NCBI RefSeq assembly: GCF_000003815.2
Contig: NC_049984.1
Coordinates: 19,347,735 to 19,411,734, forward strand
Direction: 5' to 3'
DNA from: Branchiostoma floridae
Taxonomy: Eukaryota; Chordata; Leptocardii; Amphioxiformes; Branchiostomatidae
DNA: 64,000 nt
The translations under genes and the position numbers were made by a program. The notes under the pieces were generated by a model. That model searched no databases and was not told the DNA's origin. It worked only from the letters and a program-made list of their open reading frames with translations. Of the stretch, positions 17,114 through 43,112 are shown piece by piece (positions within the stretch are counted from its first letter, which is position 1; every line of letters begins with the position of its first letter).

Positions 17114-20100
17114 CTAGTCTCGAAACTGCCAAAGTGACGCCTTTGTAGCAAATCTAACCCGTCTGCTTTTCCTCTTCCCTATCCACTTCGCCTTTCCCTT
17201 TGCCTTCAATATACCCTTATGCTTAGGCTTTTCCTCAGCCAAATGCTCTTCCAAAGAAAGGAAGTCCTTTTCTGGGCATGGTTTGTTCCAGTCTACCGGC
17301 CAGACAGTCTGGACAGTCTCCCGGTCACGGACCTGTGGAAAATGAAAGCCCAATAACAAACATTTTGGAACCGACTGTGAAACTAACGAAACACGTCTGT
17401 AATTATTAGTAAGAATTCCCTTTCCTTAAAAAGTTCAACGGAGCTTGATTGTAAATGTGTGAATGTTGCTTCGATAAAAGGCTAATGTTTTCTGATGAAA
17501 CTTTGTGCTTCTGCCAATTATAATCCCATCAGATTATTAAGGAAACGGTTACAGTAAGTGTAAGAGAATCTCACCGCCAGGTAGTACTTGTTCAGGTTTG
17601 GGTAAGCTTTCTTCGGCTGGAAGCCCATCCACACGACATATGCCAGCACGGGGAAGAACGAAACATCCGCCATGGAGAACTCTTTCTCGGCGATAAATGG
17701 ACCCCCTTCCTGTTAAAGATGTAAGATATATTTGTGAGAAAATTTGTGACATTCATTATCCGTAGAACACACTCGAAAATAAGTAACTGAGGCACAAGAC
17801 ACTGCACTGTTATCGCCTATTAAAATCGTACCTGTTTGTTTGAACTTTTATATATTCATGAGAAGCTCAAATCAGCCTGTAGGCCGCTTTTCATTGAGGT
17901 CATGAGGGAGGTATTAAAGGGTCAGATATGTATCAACCCCTCACTTCAACTTGCAGTTGCAAAACATCAAATGATTCCTGGAATGTCCATAAACAGCAAA
18001 AGTATAGACTGATTCTAAAAAGATGACAGCCATAACAGGGTATCCTTGCACTGTCGGACGAATATTGGTCTGTCTTTCACCACAGTGATCCAACAGATAA
18101 TCATAATCTGGATGAAATAACCGTTGAGTGACCGAAAGGAATATCTCTGTCTGTCTTTCATACTGCGATCCGCGCGAAACCGTACGCGTGAACTCACCTC
18201 TTTCAGATATTCCTCCCAAATCATGAGTTCTTCCGCCAGATCTTCCTTGGCATCTTTCTCATCTGGATCCTTCTTTTTATTTTGCTCCTGACAAACAACA
18301 AGAAATATAATAAGTACATGTATATCAAACTAAGCATAAAGTTGACGTGAGTAACGATGAACGGTAGTGGGCAAAAGTCGGACATAAAAAAGGCACATTT
18401 CAGAATCTAAAATTTCACCATGCCAGCTTTAAATTTTTGTGGACTGAAGTCTATGCATGTTTTAGGGACATTTTTATGGGGAATCAGCTCGCAATAGCAA
18501 GTACAACATATTGAACGCTATAGTTTTCAAGCTAGCTAGCTAACAGCATGTGTAAGCGGAAGCATGATTTACTAGTACATAGCCTCCACCAGGCCTTCCT
18601 ACGGGATCGTAGAATTAGGCCAATTGGCCAGAGGAGTAATTCCACACTTATAATATTAGTTCCCCGACCAACCCTTCTGGTAGCATACTCCTCTGGCAAA
18701 TCATTCTAATATAAAAAGCCAGCGTAGTCAGTTTGGTACAGTCTAGGGGTTGGTGACCGTTGAAAATTCAGGTCCAGGTCCGGTTCTGGTCCAGAGGATC
18801 AGGTCCATGTTTGGGCCTGAATCTGATTCTGTATGTAAGAACTTGTGAATGGACGATAATCAAAACGAAGGTCCATTTCGCAACAAAGAAATCTGTATTC
18901 GACTTCCATTGGCGTTTTAAAACCCTACAAGGCTATCGTTGAAGAGATTTATTAGTCACGTATGTTCACAGTTAATAGGAATTTTCATCAATCAGTGATT
19001 GTATTAAAGGTAAGTACACGTACCTCCAAATTTTCGATGGCTATCAGTCCTACTATACAAGGCTAACTGTCACTGTACTGTTGACTGTAAAACTTGGTAG
19101 AAATGACTATAGACTCTACTCTACTTCGCTCTTGTTATTTTCCTCGACCGGTAAGCCTCGAAACGTGTGAATGTCTGATCATATAATCTGTCCATTTTCC
19201 AATAGGTCCTACTTTTGTTTATTTGTTTATTAAAATTCACCAAACAAGTGGAAGGGGCGGGGGAACAGGTGGTGACACCTTTACTGGCCCTCGCCTCGAC
19301 ATAAAAATACAATAAATACAGCAGATTAAGATTAATACTAAACGACATAAACAATCGATCAGACTACCGAGCCCTAAAATCCTGACAGGAGGCGCACTTA
19401 CATGCAGTAGACCAGGCACAGAGGTTATCGGATACAAAGTGGCTTCTGAATCTATCAACAGTAGATTTCACAAGTAGCTGTTTGAAAGACAATAGGTCAG
19501 ACTGGTGCGACGACACAGCTCCCATGCTGCGAACTGTGACATCAAGCTTGTTCCATTCGGTACATCCGGTCCACCGATTTTTTTCAGGTCCGTTTTTTCT
19601 GGACCGCGGTCCAATAAGAAAACCCGGTTTTGTACCAGTACCCAGCCCTAGTAGAGACCATGACTTACATCTTCCGGTCCGTAATCATCATCATCCTCGT
19701 CGTCATAGTCCGCCCAGTAGCTGCAGATGGTCGTGTCTCCCACCCCGATACTCTGTGCACTGAACATGCGCTGTAGCACCAGGGCCTCGCTCGTGATGTC
19801 ATCATCAGGAATCAGTTTGGTGCCTCCGAAGGTTTCCTAGAACAATGCAACATATCAGGTAAAAGTACACGTACAGATTGATCAATCTTTCGATATATAT
19901 GAACCGCATCACTTTCATATCTCTAGCCAATGATCGTCTGGTAAATATTACTCCAGCTAAAAGACTCGACTTCAATAGAATAAGAGATGGCTGCATTTCT
20001 ATGGCAATGCGACTGAAGTTGAACCCTGACCCATTGAATATGCTGAAAATAACCTATGATATGTTTCCACAGACAACACTGGAAAGAAACGTTCGTGAAA

Positions 20101-21464
20101 ATGTTCGAAGCCAGCAAAAGAGTACCAGTATCCGACCGCTGACTTCCAGGGCAAATGTGCAAAAGTTATTGTATACTTTTGATCGGATGTGTGAGTGTAA
20201 GGCAGACAAGATTTGTACACATTGTAGAAAGTTCAGTAAAAGGGTATACACTAGGGCTGGGTACCGGTACAGAAAATTCAGGTCCGGTTCAGGTCCAGAG
20301 GATCAGGTCCAGTTCCGGACCTGAACCTGGACCTGATTCAGTATGACTCATACCAATGGTCCATTTCACTACAAAGAGATCTACTTGGTGGAGTATTAGA
20401 CTTACACTGGCGTTTTAAAATCCTACAACGCTAACTGCACCTGTACGGTTGGCTGTAAAATGTGGTAGAAATTACCATAAACTCTATTCTACTTCACTCT
20501 TGTTATTTTCTTCCACCTGCAAGCGCCAAAACGTGTGAATGCCTGATAAAATAATCTGGTAATTTTCTAATCGGTCCAACATCCGGTCTACCTAATTTTT
20601 TCAGGTCCGGTTTTTCTGGACCGGTCCAATACGAAAAAACCGGTTTTGTACCGGTACACTGTACCGATCCCCAGCCCTAGTATACACATTATTTCTATTA
20701 GCTAAACTCACCTCCAAGTAGATGCATGCAGCAAGGCACTGAGGTATAACAACATCGCCGTGCTTCAAGACAGGGATCTGGAGAACAACAGAAATCTAGT
20801 GTCCGCCAGTGCAAGGAGGATACATTTTTTAACCTCCTTGGTCAGTGCAAGTGAACATGACTCTATATACATGTACGTCAAATGTATCTCTACCACACAC
20901 AAGTAGTGAAACCTTCAATGTACTCTTATCATGTCATGATTCCATATCTATCCACCTAGGTCAATACATTTATCACGCCATGCAAAATAGAAACTGTACC
21001 ATTCCTAAATGAATCTTGACAAATGTTATGTTGCAAAGTAGCATAGAAATACTCAGTCCGATGTGTGCAATAGTTCCCTTTATTACCTACTGTAGATTCC
21101 ACTCGATATAGTCCACTAGTATTGTAGTAACTGAAATTGTTGTAATATAACGTATATGTGTAGTGACAGACTGTAACCTCTGTTATCTGTACATTGCCAT
21201 ACATAGTCACTGATGAAATTGTTGCGCAACAAACCATCTATATATCTATCTAGCACACATTTCAAGTTAACTTGACCCTATGCATACGGTGCAATGAGAC
21301 GACGAGCCCACTTTACCTCCTTCCTCGGGTTGAGCTTCTTGAGTTTCTTGCTGTTTTTCTTCTCGTCCACTACTTTGGTGGTGTTCCTCCAGGACGATCA
21401 TAAGTGTCAGAGAGGCCACACTGCCAGGCCCGTAATACAGGATAACTTCGGCGGTCTCCGACAT
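17114..21464 (-). CDS. Rho-class-like glutathione S-transferase, copy 1, exon 1 frameshifted
   Basis: Six exons in transcript order: 21317-21464, 20712-20777, 19669-19836, 18198-18287, 17575-17709 and 17114-17332 (TAG). All have GT/AG borders and match copy 3 exon for exon. The thioredoxin-like N-domain is in exons 1-2 (MSETAEVILYYGPGSVAS; IPVLKHGD with the expected cis-proline). The helical C-domain is in exons 3-6 (AEELMIWEEYLKE; FSMADVSFFPVLAYVV). Exon 1 is 148 bases against 162 in copy 3: 14 bases are missing after the codons for VLEE. This shifts the frame and leads to an early stop at the start of exon 3. Exons 2-6 are open and their splice sites intact, so this is either a young pseudogene or a sequence error. 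The glutathione-contacting Glu-Ser pair is Gln-Cys here. The C-terminal tail is basic (KAKGKAKW.., RKSRR). Cytosolic location and glutathione conjugation are inferred from the family. Confidence 0.8.
18744..19650. mobile_element. hAT-type MITE copy 1 with nested insertion (intron 3 of GST copy 1)
   Basis: The ends TAGGGGTTGGTGACCG and CCAGTACCCAGCCCTA are diverged forms of the termini at 20252 and 20679. The flanking octamers GTACAGTC and GTAGAGAC match at 6 of 8 positions, as expected of an aged 8-bp target duplication. Comparison with the other copy shows an extra ~350 bases at about 19209-19556. That insert begins with TTTTGTTTATTTGTTTATTA and looks like the antisense 3' end of a non-LTR retrotransposon. 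Confidence 0.7.
20252..20679. mobile_element. hAT-type MITE copy 2 with perfect target duplication (intron 2 of GST copy 1)
   Basis: 428 bases from TAGGGCTGGGTACCGGTACA to GTACCGATCCCCAGCCCTA, inverted terminal repeats of about 20 bases. Flanked on both sides by GTATACAC (20244-20251 and 20680-20687), a perfect 8-bp duplication. TAGGG ends plus 8-bp duplications are the hAT hallmark. The interior is built of CAGGTCCGG-type repeats and has no transposase. Confidence 0.85.
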
Positions 21465-21719
21465 GATTTTGTCAGACTGTACTTTGTCAACAGGAGAAGA
21501 CTTAAGAGTTGTCTGTGCGATATATCGATGACATATATTTAGGGACCATGAATGATGGCACAGACAACCAAGAACTGAGGGAACTGGAACAACGGGTAGC
21601 AGCTTATAAAGTCCCCTTTACAAATCAAGAATTTAGCTCGGCCGACTTGTCGGCGAACTCCGAATTGGCATTTTCCGGCGGAGTATGACCGGCGTTTTTG
21701 CGATTAACCGGAATTTGGA

Positions 21720-21956
21720 TACTCTCCAAGCAGAGGTTGAGTCACGTAGATATAGTAGTGGTCGGAAAAATTACACTGGCGCTCCTCTTACCTCTGCTTC
21801 AGATCGTAACGGCACAAGCCTATCAAATTTAATCACTTTGACACATTCAGGGCATTTTGTACCTAGGTGCTAAGTTTAAGAGGAGCGACAGTGTAATTTT
21901 TCCGACTACTACTACATACTGTATATCTACGCGACTCAACCTCTGCTTGGAGAGTA
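21720..21956. mobile_element. MITE with TACTCTCCAAGCAGAGGTT ends, copy 1
   Basis: Terminal inverted repeats extend about 75 bases on each side (through AGTCACGTAGATATA and GGAAAAATTACACT). It lies about 255 bases upstream of the start codon of GST copy 1, within its likely 5' regulatory region. No coding capacity. Confidence 0.8.
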
Positions 21957-22124
21957 GGATTTGGACGATGTTTAGCAGCGCAGCCGGCGTTCGCGGGGCA
22001 CTTTCAGCTGCGCTTAAAAATTCAGCGAGGCCTCGGCGACGATTTTAAACTTTTATGAGATGCTGGATTGATGTATCGCAAAATTCCTGTTTATTGTTTA
22101 TTCCATTTTTATTCCATTGTTTTT

Positions 22125-22210
22125 AGGGCGCCTATCCGGACACACAAACAAACAAACACACACACAGACAGACACACCTAAAACAATACCTCCATTTTCA
22201 TGGAGGTAGA
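22125..22210 (+). repeat. R1 tail fragment
   Basis: CCTATCCGGACACACAAACA, a CACACAGACAGA tract, then CCTCCATTTTCATGGAGGTA. This is the same tail as at 16980-17055, without the body. The last motif is itself a small palindrome. Confidence 0.6.
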
Positions 22211-22956
22211 AAAGTCAAGTTGCGGGGTGAGTTCTGCATGTATTCCCGACGAGGCAAATTATGAGGGAATCTTATTAATAATAATAAGATGTTTTCTTCT
22301 TTGTTATAATTCTTACAGTACGATCATCTCTATGCCGCGCTTTGTGAATCCTCCTTTTTGCTACTTTTAGAGCCACGAGAAACGATAGTTTGAAAAGAAA
22401 TTCCACAACACATTGTTGGTCATCAGAACAAATGTTGACTCTCTTTGTGTATGCTTATTCAGAGGAAAGGATGAGAAAAAGAAATAGCTGTTCATGCTTA
22501 CACGTGGAATTGTATTCTGTTGTGAAATCACCACCGAGACTGTTCATATAGTGATGTACGAATAAGTTTATTTCGTTTTGAGAACAGATAGCCCCAAGTA
22601 TTTGATAAATCGTGTGAAGATTGGTAAAGACAGGGCAATATTTGTTACTGTGTCATTCATGTAGCCTTAGATGTTGTCACCAATAAAAACAACTTATGAT
22701 CGCATCGATATTCAATATTTCTAAGCAGATACTTGGATAAGAGACCGTTATGTTCACTTTTTTATGGTGCCGTCAGATAGAAATGTCATGTCTGAAAACT
22801 ACAAAATAAACCCGAACAAGAATGTACAAACTTGCTTTCTAACCGCTAGGTTCCCAAAAGATGCTTATGACATGCGTTGTCATGAGCAAATTTGAGCACA
22901 TATTGAGTCTATGTAAAAATGTCATGGTAACGTAGGATATAGTATGTCTTGAGCCG

Positions 22957-25900
22957 CTACTTCTTGCCTAGTTTCCCGAAGAAGTCTTTCACTTTGTCGC
23001 CAAGGCCGCCCAAGACGCCAGTAGCTGGCATTTCCTTGAAGATGCCTTCTTCATCTATCGTGTGATATTTCCCAACCTCCACGACAGACGGCCGCTCCTT
23101 GATCTGTGGGTATAAAGATGAATATGATAATGGTTGACAAAATAGTCAGAATCAGTTTATCTAAAATATGGTATTTCTAATGATTGCAAAGCTACTTATT
23201 CGTTGATATTCATGTAGGTAATTCAAACTGAGTATACACTTGTTTGTAGCAGACCTTACGAAAGTCGCTGTAATTTTGTTGTGTCGATAAAGATGATATA
23301 TGTATATCCTAGTTTTGAGCTCATCTTAAAAAGAGAAACAGCTGAGGGAAAGAAGAGGGCAGTATAAAATGACCTGGGTTTTAGTGACAAAATATCATCG
23401 CCTACAGAACAATACAATGTTGCTTTGACTACAAATGGTCGTAGCGACAGTGCTAACTTTATATTTATTTACTTAGGATTCATCGCAAAAACAAGGCTCA
23501 TGGAGCCACTGAAACGTTTTGGGTTACTATACTGTATTGTGAAGAGAGATGTCTGTTAACCCTTGACTTAAACAGTTTCAGACTGTACCCCATGTACTCC
23601 ACAGGTCCGTGGAAGCTTATTCCATAACGATGTAGTTCAAGGAAAGAAGCTCTCAGCGTGGAACTTCCTCCTAAGAGGTAGATTATGGAAGCAAATTGGA
23701 TGCTTTGCTTTCGTGGAAGTGGCAAACTTATGACTGAATGTCTTAGAAATGACTAGAAATGAAGCGTCGCTCACCAGAGTGTAGTACTTGTGCAACAGCG
23801 GGTACTTCTTGGTCAGGTCTAGTCCATTCGTCACGAGGTAGGTCAGGACTGGGATGAACACACAATCCGCCATGGTGAACTCTGACCCCGCGATGTAAGT
23901 ACCCTGTAAGCAAAACAAGTCCCATGTTAGAAGTGATATCTAATTTTAGAAGGTTATAGTTTTGAATATGTCAAATGATACTATGGCTTGGAAATATGCT
24001 CAAATCTTCTGTGAATAGTTTCATCAGGTTAGTACGTCATCGAATTTGCCTGTCATATGTAAATAGTAAATATTTTACGTTTTGTGACCACATCTGAACT
24101 GTGAGCAGCGACACCTGTCCTGCAGTACGATGTGAACCAATCAGAATTGCCACGAAGAAGGTGACAGGCGGTCACTGAGACGGTCGGTGAGAATAAAGCA
24201 ATGGTTGTGTAAAAAGGGTCAAACTAAAGATTTAAAACATTAAAGAGAGACCTCCTAGCTCGTCTGCCGCTTAAATGACCATCTTTTCATTTTTATTTCA
24301 TGTGACTAGACTTCATAACTCAAGCTGTCATACTTTGGGATAAAGAAACATATTCCTTCTTACCTGTTTCAAATAGAACTCCCAGTGTTCGAGCTCTTCG
24401 GCCAGTTCTTCCTTATCTTCCTTTTCGTCAAGTGCGTCAGCCTTTTCCTCATCCTGGAGAACAAAATGTTCCAGTCAGTTGGCTACATTGGCGTGTACAT
24501 CATCATTATCGGTATTCGACCGAGTATTAAAAAATGTTGTGTACAAATACTAGTAAGCAATGTCAATGGTACAACCAAACCTAGAGTTACAAGCTTGTCT
24601 TGAACGGCAACGCCATGTCACGTAAGACAATTACATGCAGTATACATAGTACATCAATCAACGAAACAAATGGCTTATTGTGAATTCCAATAATCACCTT
24701 TCAAATTAGAACGGACATAAACATGTCTATGTTCCCCATGACCTCCAAAAAATTCTAGTTGAATGATCTTTACATCAATCAAACGTTTATCAATGTTTAC
24801 TTATACGCTATGTTTCTTGGACTGATTGCGGCATCTACACAGTTTCATCCCAATGTTTAGAAGTGGTTTTACCATGTCGTCATCACCCTCCTCCTCGTCG
24901 TCGTCCTCCCAGTACTCGTCGATACAGGTGTCCCCCACCCCGATCTTCTGTGCCTGGAGCATGCGCTTTATGACGTGAGCTCGCTGGGCCGCGCCTTCGG
25001 GAATCAGGCGGTTGTTGCCGAAGACTTTCTGCAGGGACGATGCCACATTCATGTGTTAGATTTTGGGTCAAATTTGTATTGATGATGATGATGATGAAGA
25101 AAACCTTTATTATCCGTTTCTGCTCACACAAGCTAAGTACAGGTCAAGATGATAAAGTTCTGAGTAGTTCTGAATAGTCTGGGTACTAGTTCTAGTGAAG
25201 TAAGAAAGAGTTATCTTTAAGTTACTACATGTAACTACAAAGTCTAATGTATGCTAGTATGTACAGGTTCGACTTCTTCTCGCTTCTTAAGATAGTTGTA
25301 AATGTAAACATTGCTGATGAAGTCAGGACTGTTGCAAGAATATGAGAGTGAGTTCTTCCAGTATCTTAATGCACGGAAACATTGCAAAATGGGTAAGAAA
25401 TGTTGACTTCAACTGTAATTATCTAACTATTTTCCTCCCCAAAAGAATTCCAAATAATTGCCAAGAAGATTCTGAATGAATGGATGGACGAAGAAATTTA
25501 TTTGCTCAGCAAAGGTCACAACAAAGACAAAACATATACATATAATAATACGTATTTAGCTTCTTGGTAACAATAATGGTGAAAATGTTGTTACGGTTTT
25601 GGTACAGTCAGTTTGATTGTCAAATTCTTGAATTCGATGTACTCAAATGTCTCAGCTAAAGTGATTAAATATACTTTATACATATGATATATAATAAATA
25701 GATCATACGTACTTCCAAGTATAGACAGGCTGGAACGACCTCGTCAAACAGCACATTATCACCGTGTAGGAGGGCCGGAGGCTGCAAAGTAGAACAAGTT
25801 AGGTATGGGTTACTCTCCGAGCAGATCCTAGAGTAAAATAACATACATGTAGTTTCAAAAGCTGCCAGAGGAGTTAAGCCGGCCCAGGAGTGTGTTTGGC

Positions 25901-26561
25901 TCCCAGTGGCTGATGACTCCCTTTGACCAGCTGCACTCCTTGGTCAGCTTAGATACTACATGTATTTTATGTCACTGGTAAATCTGCCTTGAAATTTGTT
26001 GATATATGGTTAGTAATACCCCCTTTCCACTAGGACGGCGCTCTCGCCGCGCGCTCTCTGTGACCTAAAATTTGACAGATCGCTCAACGAATTGTATAGA
26101 AAAGAAATAAATATTTGTTACACTTTTACGTCTTGTATGACATACCAAGTGTGAAATCGAAGGTTACACATATCATATTTAGGTCGCAGTAAAAGCGCAG
26201 CGCCATTGCCGTCTTGTGAAAGGGGGCCTGAGGAGATATAAGGCGGACTTACAAAATGCATGGATTACACATGTACCAGAAAATCACAACCAAATTATGC
26301 TACAGAAACGAATCAGCCCGAGATAGAAGCTTGCAGATTGAACATAAGACACGATATGTGATTTTCTCAATGTGTGAATGGAAGACAGCCTACCTCATCT
26401 CTGTCGGCCACCTCCTCAAGCATCGCAATGTCTTCGTCTTTCTCCGTGTTCACCTCCTTCTTGGTGTAGCTGACTCCCTTTTCTTCCAGGGCTAGCATGA
26501 TCGACATGCAGGGCGTGCTGCCTGACTCGTAGTACAGAACCATTTCTTCCGTAGACGCCAT
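22957..26561 (-). CDS. Rho-class-like glutathione S-transferase, copy 2 (divergent)
   Basis: Six exons in transcript order: 26394-26561 (ATG), 25713-25781, 24873-25028, 24364-24453, 23775-23903 and 22957-23103 (TAG). All junctions are phase 0 with GT/AG borders, and the product is 252 residues. Exon 1 reads MASTEEMVLYYESGSTP, the beta1 strand and active-site loop of a GST. Exon 2 has LLHGDNVLFDEVVPACLYLE, in which the Glu-Ser pair that binds the glutathione gamma-glutamyl group is Glu-Val. Exon 5 has GTYIAGSEFTMADCVFIPVL, the N-capping box region of helix 6. As in the sister copies, an acidic insert (YWEDDDEEEGDDDM plus the following exon) lies between helices 4 and 5. The tail is different, ending GLGDKVKDFFGKLGKK, a possible amphipathic helix. 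Usual rho-class length is about 225 residues. Relation to the fish GSTA/rho type rests on remembered motifs. Confidence 0.85.
25083..25146 (-). repeat. Antisense 3' tail of a retroposon
   Basis: GATGATGATGATGAAGAAAA, then CCTTTATTATCCGTTTCTGC and GCTAAGTACAGGTCAAGATG. Similar tails with CCTTTATTG..GGCTAAGTACAGGTCAC lie at 43461, 54538, 59105 and 59450. It sits in intron 2 of GST copy 2. Confidence 0.5.
26019..26226. mobile_element. MITE with CCCCCTTTCCACTAGGACGG end, copy 1
   Basis: Left end CCCCCTTTCCACTAGGACGG; right end GTCTTGTGAAAGGGGG. The interior ACACTTTTACGTCTTGTATG is shared with the copy at 39749. It lies in intron 1 of GST copy 2. Confidence 0.75.
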
Positions 26562-27300
26562 GATAGTGAGTTACTGTAGTTGTTGCCTGTGGCTGGAATA
26601 GCAGCAGAGTAGTCTGAGAAGTAGGTCGTTGGATGTACTAGTTACAATCTGGATCACCGTCTTCAGACAACGTGGTCATGTGACCACTGACGGCACGACT
26701 TGACTGAAAGAACAGGTCATGAGTTCATCTGCAGACAACTCTCCCAGACACTGTCTCGTCTGGAGCTATGGAGATCTGGTAGACAGTACTTAAAGGAAGA
26801 CAACATAAATCAGCACTGACAAATTTACATCACGCATTGAATTACAGACAAGGCGGGTATTATCTCACCAGATGCAAGTATTTATGATGTTTCATGTGGT
26901 AAATCATATCCAATTATCTTACTTCAAATGTTCCCCAGACAACATTTAGAAATCTCATTTTTGAATGTGAAAGGCCATCTTAGTTGCTAAATTATATAAT
27001 GATGATTGCCTTTATTGTACATTTATACATTGATATGGCTTATAACACTAATTTTCCAAGCCAAAAACAAACTGAAAAATTAAACTTTTCTCTACCGTGC
27101 AATCAATCTATGGAATACCCTACCACCAAACAGCAAATCCCTGTCAAGTATCCCAATTTATAAAGACAATCGACCATTTGATCTCAAGTTAAGTTAACGT
27201 TAATAGCTATAGCTTTTTATCCATACATTTTGTGTTATGCTTGTTTATGTTTCCTTTGTTTCTTATCTGTATATAATGCTGTATATATGTTTGCGTGTAC

Positions 27301-27352
27301 GTGGCGGAGAAGCCACGCTGTCAGGAGCGTAGTATAGTATAACTTTGGCGTA
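27301..27352 (-). pseudogene. Relic of a fourth GST exon 1
   Basis: The minus strand reads AKVILYYAPDSVASPP, matching AEVTLYYAPGSVASLT of exon 1 in GST copy 3. Similarity stops abruptly on both sides; there is no start codon in place and no donor. It lies between copies 2 and 3 in the same orientation, as expected of a lost tandem member. Confidence 0.65.
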
Positions 27353-28024
27353 CGTACGTGTATATGTATGTTTTATTGTTCGAATCTCGAACCGGTACCA
27401 TGGAAGACTAACCCTATATTGGGATAAAGGGTATCGCAATAAAAAGGAATAAATAATGAAATACTGGTCAGTGGTATGATCACTCCACACCCATGCATGG
27501 ATAATTTGATCTCTATGCTTAAAAAAATGTACCACTTAATACTATACTAGTATATTCTTGATTATTATACTCCACATAGACCGATGGCTTATCTCTGTAA
27601 TTACCACTAACTTACCGGAGAGAAACTCTGGGTTCGTCTATCATTTCTTTTCTTTCCTTACACGGTAATGACATCAATGCCACCACTTTCAACAAATATC
27701 CGTATATGTATTGGAGATCAAACTATCGACTCAAGCTACCAACGAACAAGTCTAAGTGTAACACACAAATCTATATAATTCTTTACTTTCAAAAAGTAAA
27801 AGAAAAATCATGAATCCCACACGGAACGCGTTGACAGTCCATACTTGAGTTCTTAAACTGCGCTCAAATATAACTAAATTGACACCATTAAAAAGGCTAT
27901 CAAAACTTACACCTAACGTTACGTACTATAATTCGAACCTCACATCCGCAAGATTCGATCGTCAAAACATATCTAATGTTCCTGCCTTGTTCCTGACCCG
28001 GACGAACTCCAATTCACTACAAAT
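27353..28024. other. No recognisable feature
   Basis: AT-rich intergenic DNA between the GST relic and the LINE fragment. No motif, tandem repeat or supported exon was seen. Confidence 0.4.
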
Positions 28025-28240
28025 ATGGATGCGTTTTTTAGTAGCCTGCTGTTACTGTGGAGTCCGAATCACAGAAACAGAGGCAGGGGAAGACCGCGGA
28101 AGTCATACTTTAAGCAGCTTGCTGAAGACAGCGGTTTGGACCTGCAGCAACTTCCCGCAGCGATGGATGACAAAGAGGTGGAGGAAACTAGAAACGTGGA
28201 GACTCCGAGCGAGCTCGCCGCAGTGAGTGTGTGAGTGAGA
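28025..28240 (+). mobile_element. Decayed non-LTR retrotransposon C-terminus
   Basis: It reads GRGRPRKSYFKQLAEDSGL, then DLQQLPAAMDDKEV; in the next frame the reading continues WRKLETWRLRASS. The RGRPRxxYxxQLxEDxGL..L..AMxDxxxWR pattern is common at the end of retrotransposon reverse-transcriptase ORFs. The frame shift at the VWRKL site shows decay. Confidence 0.55.
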
Positions 28241-28542
28241 GTGCTGTGTAATGCTTTTTGTAGCCGTATCATTGTATATCTGTATCGTGTACGTATGTGT
28301 ACTATTTCAAGTGAACAGGGCAGACGGAAAAAAGGATATACCATCCCGTTACTCCTGCTCTGTTTACTATTCTTGCGTTGGTTGGTTAACATATTTCATG
28401 TATCTGTTCCATGTTTTTATTTCAACTTTGTCACCATAGTGAATTAAGGCCTTTATTGTTCATACATACCCACTGGATTAAGTACAAGTTGTAACAAAAA
28501 AACAGTAAGGTCCATATGCAAGGCAGGTCACATGATAAGAAC

Positions 28543-28548
28543 TTTATT
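28543..28548 (-). terminator. Candidate poly(A) signal for GST copy 3
   Basis: AATAAA on the minus strand, about 535 bases after the stop codon. The MITE at 28880-29054 would lie inside the resulting 3' UTR. Weakly supported. Confidence 0.3.
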
Positions 28549-28879
28549 TTCAACACACGGAAACAGGTAATCTGTCTCTCTTGAGACCATCATTATGGCA
28601 CAATATTGTCAACATTGCCAATATGTCATGTTAAAGTAGCATTTTTAAAACAACATCTCAATTTGTTCATATTCGAATTCCCGTGTGTGTAGATACTATT
28701 TGCACACAACAGAAGTTTGCTTGAAGTGTTCTCATTACTGTAACTGTGCTTTGCGCACAAGATAACGTTACAACGTTTTAACTCAAATCCAGCTTACAAA
28801 AACTGTCCGGGTAATTTTTGAACATTCGAATCAACTCTTGCAGCTTCTTGTAATTGATTTGTTATCCAACATCCGGAGA

Positions 28880-29054
28880 AGCATCTACCAGGCTCCGTGG
28901 ATCGGTGGTCTAATCGTAGAAAAACTTGAGAGTCAATAGCACGCTAGGGGAGTCGGCCGGCCACTAAAACATTGACTCTCAAGTTGTCCAATTTCTACAA
29001 TTAGATGCAATTACAATTAGATCGACCACCGATCCACGGAGCCTGGTAGAGGCT
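28880..29054. mobile_element. MITE of the CTACCAGGCTCC family
   Basis: Inverted ends CTACCAGGCTCCGTGGATCG and CGATCCACGGAGCCTGGTAG, plus an inner inverted pair CTTGAGAGTCAATAG/CATTGACTCTCAAG. It starts 28 bases after the TAG of GST copy 3. Confidence 0.8.
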
Positions 29055-29081
29055 ACATCTGGAGAACGTTGACCAAATATT

Positions 29082-32000
29082 CTATTTCTTTCCCTTTGCC
29101 TTCCCCTTCCCTTTTCCCTTCCATTTCGCCTTTCCCTTATCATTAGACTTGGCCTTAGGTTTAGGCTCTTCCTCGTCCTCTTCCAAATACTCCTCCAAGT
29201 AGAGGAAGTCCTTCTCTGGACATGGTTTGTTCCAGTCTACCGGCCAGACTGCCTGGACAGTCTCCCGGTCACGGACCTGTGGAAAATGAAACAAAAAAAC
29301 TTTATTCCTTCTGTAAAATATAGCAACAAATTATTTGATCCGACTGTGAAATTTCAGCAGCACTCATTTGTCATTAGCAAGCTTTAAAATTTTCCTTCGT
29401 GATTTATGCATTGTAAACGTGTAAATTTTGATGCATACCGTAATATACATAAAGTCTCATGTTTAACGTTACTGAACAAATTTGTGTCATGTGTCAATTA
29501 TATAATCCCATCAAAATTTGATATAACGTTATGTTCCAGCTGCTACTGTATTCAAAGTGTATAGCCATTTTATTCTACCTAATACTTGATGTTACTTGCT
29601 GACATCATTATTTGATTGTATTTACGTTTGTTCAATCTGTACTGTATATGTACATGTAACTACATGTATGTGTATGCGGTCACAATGCCAGCTTGTTGCC
29701 CCGTTGCAATTCGAATAAAGTCAAGGTCAGAATTTGAAGGAAATGGTACTATCGAGCACAGGTATTGTAAGAGAATCTTACCGCCAGGTAGTAGTCGTTC
29801 AGGTGTGGGTAAGCTTTCTTCGGCTGGAATCCCATCCACACGACGTAAGCCAGCACGGGGAAGAACGAAACATCCGCCATGGAGAACTCTTTCCCGGCGA
29901 TAAACGGACCCCCTTCCTGTTGGAATTGGAAATGTACATACATATGTAAGAAAAAGACATCTGTTGAATACATTCGCAGAGGAATAGCTTAATATACAAT
30001 GTACTAGTAACGTGTCTATAAGCCACTGTTATTACCTAACGTTATCAACTCTGATATGATTTCTGGAACAACGCCTACAAAGAAGCTACAGAAGTAGAGA
30101 CAGTTTCTGATTTGAAGACACTCATTACAGAGTTTCCTTGCTCTGCCGGATGAAGCTAATAACATACTAGTGCCATAAATGATCACATTCGGGATGAAGT
30201 GCCAACAAGAAATCTCTAGTTGCTCTACAAACACTGCTCACCTCTTTCAGATATTCCTCCCAAATCATGAGTTCCTCCGCCAGATCTTCCTTGGCATCTT
30301 CCTCATCCGGATCCTCATCTTCATCTTCCTCCTCCTGATGATGACAAATAACAAAAAAATGATAAATACCTGTATAACAAACTAAGGATAAAATTGCGGC
30401 TGATAACAACGAAGACACAATTTCACCATGTCAGCTTTGAATTTCTGTTAGGAAATGAAGCTTCGTGGTACCTATCCTACTACAAGGATCTACAAGATAT
30501 CGTAAATTTGATGTTTTATGAAAACTATTAGCAAAATACAAAGCTGACAAATCATATGTTTCTACCAGGACTACAACTCAATACTGACAGCGGATTTATC
30601 GAAAGTGCGAACGGGAACGAAAAGGAGAGAAAAGGAACAGAAAGGAACGAAAGAGAACAAAAAGGAGCGAAAAGGAACGAAAATGAGAGAAAAAGAACAG
30701 CACAAGGGCCTTTTAAGAAGCATTTAAATGGGGAAGGATCTTACAATAGCAAGGAAACCATATCTAGGCCTATAGCTTCCAGGCTACCTAGCTAATGGCA
30801 AGTGTAAAGAAGCATGACTTACATCTTCCGGTCCGTAATCCTCATCATCCTCGTCGTCATAGTCCGCCCAGTAGCTGCAGATGGTCGTGTCTCCCACCCC
30901 GATACTCTGTGCACTGAACATGCGCTGTAGCACCAGGGCCTCGCTCGTGATGTCATCATCAGGAATCAGTTTGGTGCCTCCGAAGGTTTCCTAGAACATT
31001 GCAGCATATCAGGTTAACTCCATGAATGAATAATTGGAAGAAAGTGCAGGTCTGTGATAGTCTCCAAGCAGAGGTTCGTCTCTGGCCTTTTTATCGTTTT
31101 TCATCGGGCTTTGTATTTTGTACCGTTTTCTCGTTCGAGACACAAAGAAATATATAAAGCCCGATAAAACGACTGAAAAACGTCAAAAACAGTCGGGGGC
31201 GAACCTCTGCTTGGAGAGCTCTGTTTATCTGTGATAGCATTGGTCATTCTTAAGGTAATAGGAATGCTAGTACTGTAGTAGTGAATTGTAGACACTAAGC
31301 AAAGATGAGTTCCGTTCCACAAATTCTGGCTAATTATATACAATATGGTAAGACAGTAACGCTAGAGCTATATGCAGAATTTAGCCATATACTCACCTCC
31401 AAATATATACAGGCAGCCATAAACTCCTGTAGAACAAAATCGCCATGCTTCAGGACGGGGACCTGGAAAATAACAGAAAGCAGGTGGTTGCAATGATGGA
31501 ATGTATTCGCTTGGTGGCGCTTCGTACACATGTATGACTATTACCTGTTAGACGGTTTGATCTGTACCCTCCAAGAACGGGATTGGGTGCGTTTTGTTCT
31601 AAAAGACTTTGATATACAGCAAGAGAGTTCCCCTGTGTTACACACACATACACTGACTAAAGTCTATGTATCATTCCGTAAGCTACAGCTGATAGCAGTA
31701 ATATATCAAGTATTCATTAAGCTAAAGGAAAAATTTTTCTGTTTATAATTTCACAAAAAGACCAAAAAGAGATTTACGAGGATACAATGATATTTCGATT
31801 GTATCTGTTGTCGTGTTTCAACAAATGTTATAAGTTACCCCGAGAAGATTTTAAACTGATGATGACATATATGACCTACATCAATGTACAATTACTCAGA
31901 CAAGTAGGTCCCTTCGATATATCTGGGGCAATTTTTGCACGCTAGGGAAAATTTTACCTTACATTTTGAAACTCTAGTTACTATTGATAAATTTATCAAG

Positions 32001-32180
32001 ACAACGAACCGATGTTACCTCCTCCCTGGGGCAGAGGTTCTTGAATTCCTTGCTAGGCTTGTCCTCGTCCACTACTTTGGTGGTGTACTCGATCCCTTTT
32101 TCCTCCAGGACGATCTGAAGCGTCAGAGAGGCCACGCTGCCTGGAGCGTAGTACAGGGTAACTTCGGCGGTCTCCGACAT
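29082..32180 (-). CDS. Rho-class-like glutathione S-transferase, copy 3 (intact)
   Basis: Six exons in transcript order: 32019-32180 (ATG), 31397-31462, 30823-30990, 30242-30334, 29782-29916 and 29082-29276 (TAG). All junctions are phase 0 with GT/AG borders and the product is 272 residues. Residues 1-76 form the thioredoxin-like domain: MSETAEVTLYYAPGSVAS, VLEEKGIEYTTKVVDEDKP, VPVLKHGD with cis-Pro, AACIYLE. Residues 77-163 cover helices 4-5 with a very acidic insert at about 119-149, roughly three-quarters Asp/Glu. Residues 164-208 read GGPFIAGKEFSMADVSFFPV, the conserved helix-6 region, and HLNDYYLA. Residues 209-272 read RDRETVQAVWPVDWNKPCPE and then a lysine/glycine tail. The glutathione-binding Glu-Ser pair is Glu-Phe (LQEFMAA). 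Resemblance to rho-class/GSTA enzymes is strongest at the WEEYLKE, FIAGKEFSMADV and AVWPVDW motifs. A cytosolic dimer is expected for the family. Catalytic competence is uncertain because of the altered pair and the charged additions. Confidence 0.88.
31060..31219. mobile_element. MITE with CTCCAAGCAGAGGTTCG ends, copy 2 (exon1-exon2 region of GST copy 3 gene)
   Basis: Ends AGTCTCCAAGCAGAGGTTCG and CGAACCTCTGCTTGGAGAGC. The interior differs from copies 1 and 3 except for TTTTTATCG/CGATAAAA blocks shared with 42930-43112. It lies in intron 2 of GST copy 3. Confidence 0.8.
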
Positions 32181-36429: not shown

Positions 36430-38060
36430 AACAATACAGGTAAGTAAGGTGTGTTTCCTTTTATACCAGACCAGGTAAGACACCGTACAGGTGAGTAAGG
36501 TGTGTTTCCTTGACTACAGACTAGGTAAGACACCTTACAGGTGAGCAACGTGTATTTCCTTTCATTACAGACCAGGTAAGACACCGTACAGGTGAGTAAC
36601 GTGTATTTCCTTTCAGTACAGACCAGGTAAGACACCGTACAGGTGAGTAACGTGTANNNNNNNNNNNNNNNNNNNNNNNNNNNNNNNNNNNNNNNNNNNN
36701 NNNNNNNNNNNNNNNNNNNNNNNNNNNNNNNNNNNNNNNNNNNNNNNNNNNNNNNNNNNNNNNNNNNNNNNNNNNNNNNNNNNNNNNNNNNNNNNNNNNN
36801 NNNNNNNNNNNNNNNNNNNNNNNNNNNNNNNNNNNNNNNNNNNNNNNNNNNNNNNNNNNNNNNNNNNNNNNNNNNNNNNNNNNNNNNNNNNNNNNGTGAG
36901 TAACGTGTATTTCCTTTGATTACAGACCAGGTAAGACACCATACAGGCGAGTAACGTGTATTTCCTTCAACCACAGACCAGGTAAGACACCGTACGGGTG
37001 AGTAAGTCGTATTTCCTTAGCCTATAGCCCAGTTAGGGCATTATACAGGTAAGTAAGTTGCTTTACTCACCGGTTTAATACCTACTCACCTGTATGCTGT
37101 CTTACCTGGTCTGTAATCAAAGGAAATACACGTTACTCACACGCACGGCGTCATACCTGGTCTGTTATAAAAAGGAAACACACCTTACTTGCCTGTATGG
37201 TGTCTTACCTGGCCTGTGTCAAAGGAAATACACGTTACTCACCTGTATGGTGTCTTACCTGGTCTGTAATCAAAGGAAATACACGTTACTCACCTGTACG
37301 ATGTCTAACCTAGTCTGTAGTCAAGGAAACACACCTTACTCACCTGTACGGTGTCTTACCTGGTCTTTACTGAAAGGAAATACACGTTACTTACCTGTAC
37401 GGTGTCTTACCTAGTCTGTTATAAAAGGAAACACACCTTACTCACCTGTACGGTGTCTTACCTTGTGTGTACTGAAAGGAAATACACGTTACTTTCCTGT
37501 ACGGTGTCTTACCTAGTCTGTTATAAAAGGAAACACACCTTACTCACCTGTACGGTGTCTTACCTGGTCTGTACTGAAAGGAAATACACGTTACTCACCT
37601 GTACGGTGTCTTACCTAGACTGTTATAAAAGGAAACACACCTTACTCACCTGTACGGTGTCTTACCTAGTCTGTTATAAAAGGAAACACACCTTACTCAC
37701 CTGTACGGTGTCTTACCTGGTCTGTAATCCAAGGAAATACACGTTACTCACCTGTACGGTGTCTTACCTAGTCTGTAATCAAAGAAAATACACGTTACTT
37801 ACCTGTACGGTGTCTTACCTAGTCTGTAGTCAAGGAAACACACCTTACTCACCTGTACGGTGTCTTACCTGGTCTGTAATCAAAGGAAATGCACGTTACT
37901 CACCTGTACGGCGTCTTACCTAGTCTGTAGTCAAGGAAACACACCTTACTCACATGTACGGTGTTTTACCTGGTCTGCTATAAAAGGAAACACACCTTAC
38001 TTACCTGTACGGCGTCTTACCTGGCCTGTTATAAAAGGAAACACACTTTACTTACCTGTA
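36430..38060. repeat. Inverted pair of 51-bp tandem arrays
   Basis: The unit is approximately TTACTCACCTGTACGGTGTC, then TTACCT(A/G)GTCTGT, then a variable part. Variant 1 has AATCAAAGGAAATACACG and variant 2 TATAAAAGGAAACACACC; they alternate irregularly. 51 bases equal 17 codons, so long open frames repeating YLVCNQRKYTLLTCTVS appear without selection. Forward units occupy about 37080-38060 and reversed units 36430-37020, with a gap at 36657-36895. Confidence 0.9.
36657..36895. other. Assembly gap (239 N) inside the tandem array
   Basis: It falls within the reversed half of the array, so the true number of units is unknown. Confidence 0.99.
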
Positions 38061-39502
38061 TTGTTGTCATTTATTAAGAAGAGAAAAAACAATTTGTTTG
38101 TAAATGTTAATAAAGGTACATTTTACAGTTGAAATTTTCTACGTAATAACTACTAGTAAATGTTATAAAACATTTCCTTTCTGTACTCAGAAGAGGAGCC
38201 CGCTCGTGCCATGTTCCAACATTTTATTAGGCTATTAATAGCATGTGGTCACATTTTTCTGCACACAAATAATGCAATTAATATTGTTTATGAGTCAACT
38301 TCTTCCAATACTTTAGAAATATTTAGGAAGTGAAACGAAATACATTTTTGTATTTGAAATAAGTTTGTACACACTGTAACAGATACTCATCTAATCAAAT
38401 CCTCATTGTAACAATGTTTCTGTGATAAATAAAGATAAGAAAAGTCCAGTTTGGTGAAGAGTTATTATTATAATGTAAATAGTATTGTTAATGATAAATA
38501 GCTATGATTTTCTAGTATTGGTTACCTGCCCCTAGTCAGGTTTATAACACTAATGTGTCTGAGCCTTTTGTACATTAATTGGGCACTGAGGTGAATCAAT
38601 ATCCATATTTGCACTAACTTCCTCAAACCTGGGTAATAATAGCACAAAAAAAGGACCACAATGTAAATATCAGTCAGATGATAGCACTATGAATTGAAAA
38701 TCTTGTTCAGAATTCACTCTAAAATGGTTGTATGAGAAGCTATGCTACAACAGTCCCTCCCGCGATACTTATAGAACAGTCCCGCAAGGAGGTCACATGA
38801 CTAGTGCCCGCCATTTTGAATTGCTATAGTTAATGTATGGTAGTATCGTCGCCGTACATTTTGACCAAAAACAGGGACTTAAAATGCTTGTAAAGCACGG
38901 AAACTCCGTACACATCAATGGGACACCATCTTGAACATGTTTGTGGCGGTAGGTTTAGGTGTCGTTGCGCGACGGCTGATATTTTTGTGGATATAGTGGG
39001 CATTCGCTAAAAAGACATTTTGCTGGGCGTTCGCTAAAAAGACCATCGAGAATCGAAAACTTTGATTTATGTCACTTCGGGTCAATGGATTGACTTGAAA
39101 CTCAGGATTAATACATGGGAGCACAACGTGGACATATTCCAAGCAAAAAAAAATGAGATTCGTGCAGCGCGGACTTCTCTAGAGTCACGGGGCGTTTGTG
39201 GGCATTCGCTAAAAAGACCATGCGAGTCAAAACTGAGCACTTTGACGTTATTTCAATTAATCATGTTGGCAATATTAGTAAAATTTACTAGCACACTATC
39301 TAGAGTATAGCAAGACCATTATATAGAAGGATATTTATATATAGAAGAACACCTTCTCTATAATGATAATGTCCAATGGCTAGCGCTGACGTAGCCACCA
39401 TGGCCAGTCTACATTCTGTGAGGTCTACATTCAGCCTCCAAACGTTTGTGCTATCAAAAGAAACCAGCTTTACAGGCACTCCTCATGGAGTGATGAGACT
39501 TT

Positions 39503-42929: not shown

Positions 42930-43112
42930 TACTCTCCAATCAGAGGTTAGTCTCCGGCTGTTTTTTAACGTTATTTAGGCATTTTTATCGGGATTTCTTG
43001 TACTGCTCCTTGATGTCTCGTGGCCGCAAAAAAGTACAAAATAGAAGGCCTGATAAAAAATGCCTAAAAACGTAAAACAAGCAGCCGGAACCTAACTTCT
43101 GCTTGGAGAGTA
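42930..43112. mobile_element. MITE with TACTCTCCAA..CAGAGGTT ends, copy 3
   Basis: Ends TACTCTCCAATCAGAGGTTA and TAACTTCTGCTTGGAGAGTA. Inner inverted blocks CGGCTG/CAGCCG and TTTTTAACG/CGTAAAAC. The interior resembles 31060-31219 more than 21720-21956. Confidence 0.75.

Follow-up and report, generated by a model that had tools for sequence, protein, structure and literature searches.

Probable recent gene conversion of a single exon between tandem glutathione S-transferase genes of Branchiostoma floridae

Why should one exon be nearly identical in two tandem glutathione S-transferase (GST) genes of Branchiostoma floridae while the neighbouring exons of the same pair are diverged? The window analysed here, a stretch of 64,000 nucleotides of contig NC_049984.1, holds three GST genes, all on the minus strand. 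Copy 3 (29082..32180, minus strand) is intact, as judged by exon reading and by domain and PDB searches; its six phase-0 exons encode a rho-class-like protein of 272 aa with N- and C-terminal GST domains (Pfam PF02798 and PF14497, among others). The best of the 101 PDB sequences matched by copy 3 is the rho-class glutathione S-transferase 3qav (E=1.7e-31, residues 2-225), its closest solved relative by sequence, from which it differs in an acidic stretch of ~14 residues near 129-142 that has no counterpart in 3qav and in a lysine-rich tail beyond residue 225 that does not align to it. With these domains and this similarity, copy 3 is a predicted rho-class-like GST. Copy 2 (exons 1-5, 23775..26561, minus strand; its last exon was not identified) served as outgroup and control.

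Exons 2 to 6 of copy 1 (17114..20777, minus strand) lie at 20712-20777, 19669-19836, 18198-18287, 17575-17709 and 17114-17332, respectively, and each is open from its own first base. Exon 1 (21317..21464, minus strand) lacks 14 bp that are present in exon 1 of copy 3. This deletion shifts the reading frame: read in the frame required for exon 2, exon 1 contains two stops without a later ATG. As assembled here, copy 1 is therefore probably a pseudogene, barring a misassembled deletion or a null allele that is still segregating. With exon 3 excluded, dN/dS between copies 1 and 3 is ~0.31 (0.132/0.428), which suggests that the two copies were under constraint for much of their divergence. At 27298-27350 a remnant of exon 1 from a GST gene stands alone (77% identical to copy 1, 84% to copy 3); it is nearer to these two copies than to copy 2 and is perhaps the trace of a lost further copy.

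Exon 3 of copy 1 (19669..19836, minus strand; placed by splice sites, length and translation) and exon 3 of copy 3 (30823..30990, minus strand; placed by splice sites and length) were compared base by base and differ at exactly one of 168 positions (19687 versus 30841), the count given in a preliminary description of this sequence; the encoded proteins are separated by a single D/E change. Bounded by the flanking mismatches, the shared tract measures 186 bp with one mismatch and spans 19659..19844 in copy 1 and 30813..30998 in copy 3, the likely donor (both minus strand). It comprises exon 3 and extends into both adjoining introns, by 10 bp (intron 3) and 8 bp (intron 2); the preliminary description gave about 10-25 bases. 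Between the two copies no longer ungapped stretch contains fewer than two mismatches; with exon 3 masked, the longest such stretch is 64 bp.

The other five exons of copies 1 and 3 differ at 102/624 aligned sites in a codon alignment, a total that takes in exon 6, the 3' half of which is poorly alignable (46/186 differences in the protein alignment, 23/183 in a nucleotide alignment). The remaining counts are 22/147 for exon 1 (18/146 in the nucleotide alignment), 17/66 for exon 2, 9/90 for exon 4 and 8/135 for exon 5, so that divergence outside exon 3 ranges from 5.9 to 25.8% per exon. The values for exons 2 and 5 reproduce the approximate figures of the preliminary description. Its claim of strong divergence in the second half of exon 4 holds in plus-strand coordinates: eight of the nine differences, which are accompanied by a 3-bp gap, fall in the half that is transcribed first.

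Against this background, identity between copies 1 and 3 is significantly higher in the exon 3 tract than elsewhere. Fisher's test of 1/168 in exon 3 versus 102/624 in the other exons gives p=2e-10; without the hard-to-align exon 6 the comparison is 1/168 versus 56/438 (p=1e-7), and relative to polymorphic sites it is 1/58 versus 56/192 (p=1.3e-6). The preliminary description had proposed a formal conversion test, and a GENECONV-like shuffle of 250 polymorphic sites from exons 1-5 of the three copies found the exon 3 run to be longer than expected by chance (longest run 53, including the last polymorphic sites of exon 2, versus a shuffle mean of 17; p=5e-5, or p=4e-4 with mismatches scored). 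Weaker tests give p=0.025 for third positions only (run test) and p=0.012 for exon 3 versus exon 5 alone. The excess identity extends to silent sites: none of 55 silent codons differs in exon 3, versus 28/162 elsewhere (p=2.6e-4), and dS is 0 in exon 3 versus 0.43 elsewhere. It is absent from both comparisons with the third paralogue, as copy 2 differs from copy 1 at 57/156 sites in exon 3 versus 172/432 elsewhere (p=0.50), and from copy 3 at 58/156 versus 174/447 (p=0.77).

Homologous native flanks at background divergence are present on both sides, and the tract is thus in place. In intron 2 of copy 1 the flank (19845..19863, minus strand) remains in register with copy 3 and carries 3/19 mismatches, versus 1/186 in the tract (p=0.0026); all three lie within 17 bp of the tract edge. 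Past these 19 bp we found no further convincing alignment between the two copies in intron 2. In intron 3 of copy 1 the tract end abuts inserted DNA, and native sequence returns at 18572, after 1.09 kb; the native start of this intron (18460..18572, minus strand) is 74.6% identical to copy 3 30711-30822 over 114 columns. The sharp edge noted previously is real, with the qualification that on the intron-3 side, at the splice donor, it lies where transposons have entered copy 1 and marks a transposon insertion.

The inserted DNA in intron 3 consists of a palindromic hAT-type MITE (18580..18743, with its last bases expected at 19651-19660) interrupted by a hAT-like transposon (18744..19650). The hAT-like element has TAGGG...CCCTA ends and, by reading, an 8-bp site duplication matching at 6/8 positions, and a 349-bp high-copy element (19214-19562) is nested within it. 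A second hAT-like copy (20252..20679), with a perfect 8-bp duplication by reading, lies in intron 2 of copy 1, and the two bracket exon 3 in the same orientation. A palindromic element is also found in intron 2 of copy 3 (31058..31218) and again at ~42930-43112. hAT elements generate 8-bp target duplications. The MITE family was found across the genome (40 of 233 candidates scored); of the 20 copies examined, 17 have GACTA as their last bases. Flanking duplications of 8 or 9 bp are perfect in 6/20 and carry one mismatch in 5/20, and none of this quality was seen in the remaining 9/20. The insert beside exon 3 is thus a hAT-type MITE, as established by terminal inverted repeats and 8-bp duplications across its genomic copies, whereas the window copy itself lacks a clean 8-bp target duplication. 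The octamers adjacent to it mismatch by reading (CTAGTACA versus TGACTTAC), and its final two bases are CA, identical to copy 3. If seven extra bases on the native side are admitted, the repeat TGATTTAC/TGACTTAC, matching at 7/8 positions, brackets the insert, and a plain MITE insertion would explain such a repeat.

Taken together, the silent-site identity, the lack of any excess in the copy 2 comparisons and the native flanks at background divergence make gene conversion the best explanation and bear out the earlier reading of an exchange between tandem copies: a recent interlocus (ectopic) gene conversion of ~186 bp between copies 1 and 3 is very probable. We consider it fairly likely, though unproven, that copy 3 was the donor and copy 1 the recipient, because copy 1 is frameshifted and copy 3 is intact. 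When changes in exons 1, 2, 4 and 5 are polarized by copy 2, 24 fall to copy 1 and 20 to copy 3; copy 1 is not clearly faster, and the sequence therefore lends little support to either direction. Mechanistically, a break in copy 1 could have been repaired by short synthesis templated on copy 3. Transposons and indels would break up the introns and leave homology only in and around exons, which would yield an exon-sized tract, and the intron-3 end does fall exactly where the transposons are clustered. Copies 1 and 3 can still be aligned in five regions, each ~180 to 340 columns long, around exons 1, 3, 4, 5 and 6, so the length of homology fails to single out exon 3. The preliminary description noted that the tract falls on the exon that begins the acidic insert; nothing seen here pointed to the insert itself as the target.

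A similar pattern might be produced if strong purifying selection on exon 3, silent sites included, had preserved the identity, and the encoded proteins are indeed identical bar the D/E change. Copy 1 is, however, frameshifted, and copy 2 differs from both copies in exon 3 at 36-37% of sites versus 39-40% in the other exons, silent changes included. Since identity in exon 3 is not raised in either comparison with copy 2, constraint does not account for the tract; selection was rejected on the strength of these comparisons and is extremely improbable. RNA-mediated copying was likewise rejected, as the tract includes 10 + 8 bp of intron, unexpected from a spliced template. Another rival is an assembly artefact, in which copy 1 received misplaced reads from exon 3 of copy 3, or the wrong sequence during haplotype merging; multi-copy transposons flank exon 3 of copy 1 and invite read misplacement. 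Sanger reads are several hundred bases each. We presume that the sequence belongs to the 19-chromosome B. floridae assembly, which was haplotype-merged (~tenfold Sanger shotgun reads, ARACHNE, HaploMerger2, chromatin-contact scaffolding; PMC7269912); its reads are longer than the tract, and the main text of that paper does not mention PacBio, its single match to 'illumina' apparently being 'illuminates' in a reference. The tract ends within introns rather than at exon ends, with three native mismatches at most 17 bp away, and there is no run of N from 14252 to 36656. In searches of the genome (513,431,437 bases, 431 contigs), DNA placed exon 3 at two positions only, both in the window, among 40 of 84 candidates scored; the other 38 scored matches all lie in query 1-62, a transposon end. 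At the protein level, residues 72-133 matched only at the three window copies (42 of 42 candidates scored). As both searches placed exon 3 only within the window, no stray haplotype copy was seen among the candidates scored. An artefact thus looks less likely than conversion, and we regard it as improbable.

A further possibility is a special case of conversion rather than an alternative to it. In this one-ended variant, an exon 3 derived from copy 3 would have replaced that of copy 1 and been joined non-homologously to the MITE, overwriting the last two bases of the element and its site duplication. The MITE copies elsewhere in the genome speak for it, as they mostly end in GACTA and often have duplications, while the octamers in copy 1 mismatch and the element ends in CA. 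The 7/8 repeat around the insert, on the other hand, fits plain insertion, and the introns of copy 1 yielded no trace of an earlier exon 3, as local alignment scores there did not exceed those of single-base shuffles. We consider the one-ended variant unlikely on balance. Equally tentative is the broader proposal that fast intron turnover leaves exons as the main islands of conversion with transposons setting their edges, so that one exon of a dying copy would here have been refreshed from the working neighbouring gene by one-ended repair into a MITE.

On the reading of interlocus gene conversion the event can be roughly dated. At a mutation rate of 5.89e-9 per base per generation (PMC12862219), the single difference in 186 bp corresponds to ~4.6e5 generations (95% 1.2e4 to 2.5e6), and a dS of 0.43 places the duplication of the pair at ~3.6e7 generations. 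With an allelic diversity of 3-4.2%, 2Ne amounts to 2.5-3.6 million generations; the conversion falls inside the range of allele ages in B. floridae, and the tract may therefore still be segregating. The conversion reading predicts haplotypes with and without the tract in the population; the present comparison rests on one assembled haplotype.

As a control we used six GST-like stretches chosen from protein matches on the same contig (C6:13.945-14.065 Mb), a region with 49,699 N per 120,000 bases; one stretch has a single GST match, and minus-strand matches near the start of the region were left out. When one mismatch is allowed, the longest shared stretch in any of the 15 pairs is 113 bp. Three pairs (A-B, A-C and B-C) reach 103 to 113 bp against surroundings of 72-87% identity, and smaller or milder conversions are therefore possible in this cluster as well. 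Among the self-matches listed, satellite-like arrays repeating at intervals of ~171 bp adjoin this second GST cluster at ~C6:14.037-14.055 Mb and near 14.017 Mb. In the window, a 51-bp tandem repeat array (families D1-D3) occupies 36454-38085 and contains a run of N at 36657-36895.

If the conversion reading is correct, this locus provides a clean, roughly dateable case of ectopic conversion on the scale of an exon, in a chordate presumed to be highly heterozygous; copy 2 serves as an internal control and copy 1 is a likely pseudogene partner. It also urges caution, as a single converted exon can mislead exon-based trees of lancelet tandem families. Interlocus gene conversion is well known as a process, and the present case is a new example of it; a literature search of titles and abstract openings returned nothing on this GST locus. 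Like the interlocus conversion of tandem duplicates described in PMC3924818, the tract is short, its identity rises sharply above that of its flanks and includes silent sites, and the copies are in tandem, here 11 kb apart. It differs in that the flanks here are heterologous, owing to intronic transposons, and the tract matches a single exon in size. In B. floridae itself, meiotic non-crossover conversion produces tracts of which 90.9% are <200 bp, with a mean of 99 bp (PMC12500494). The tract described here, from the same species, is likewise <200 bp, with the difference that alleles were studied there, whereas paralogues are converted here.
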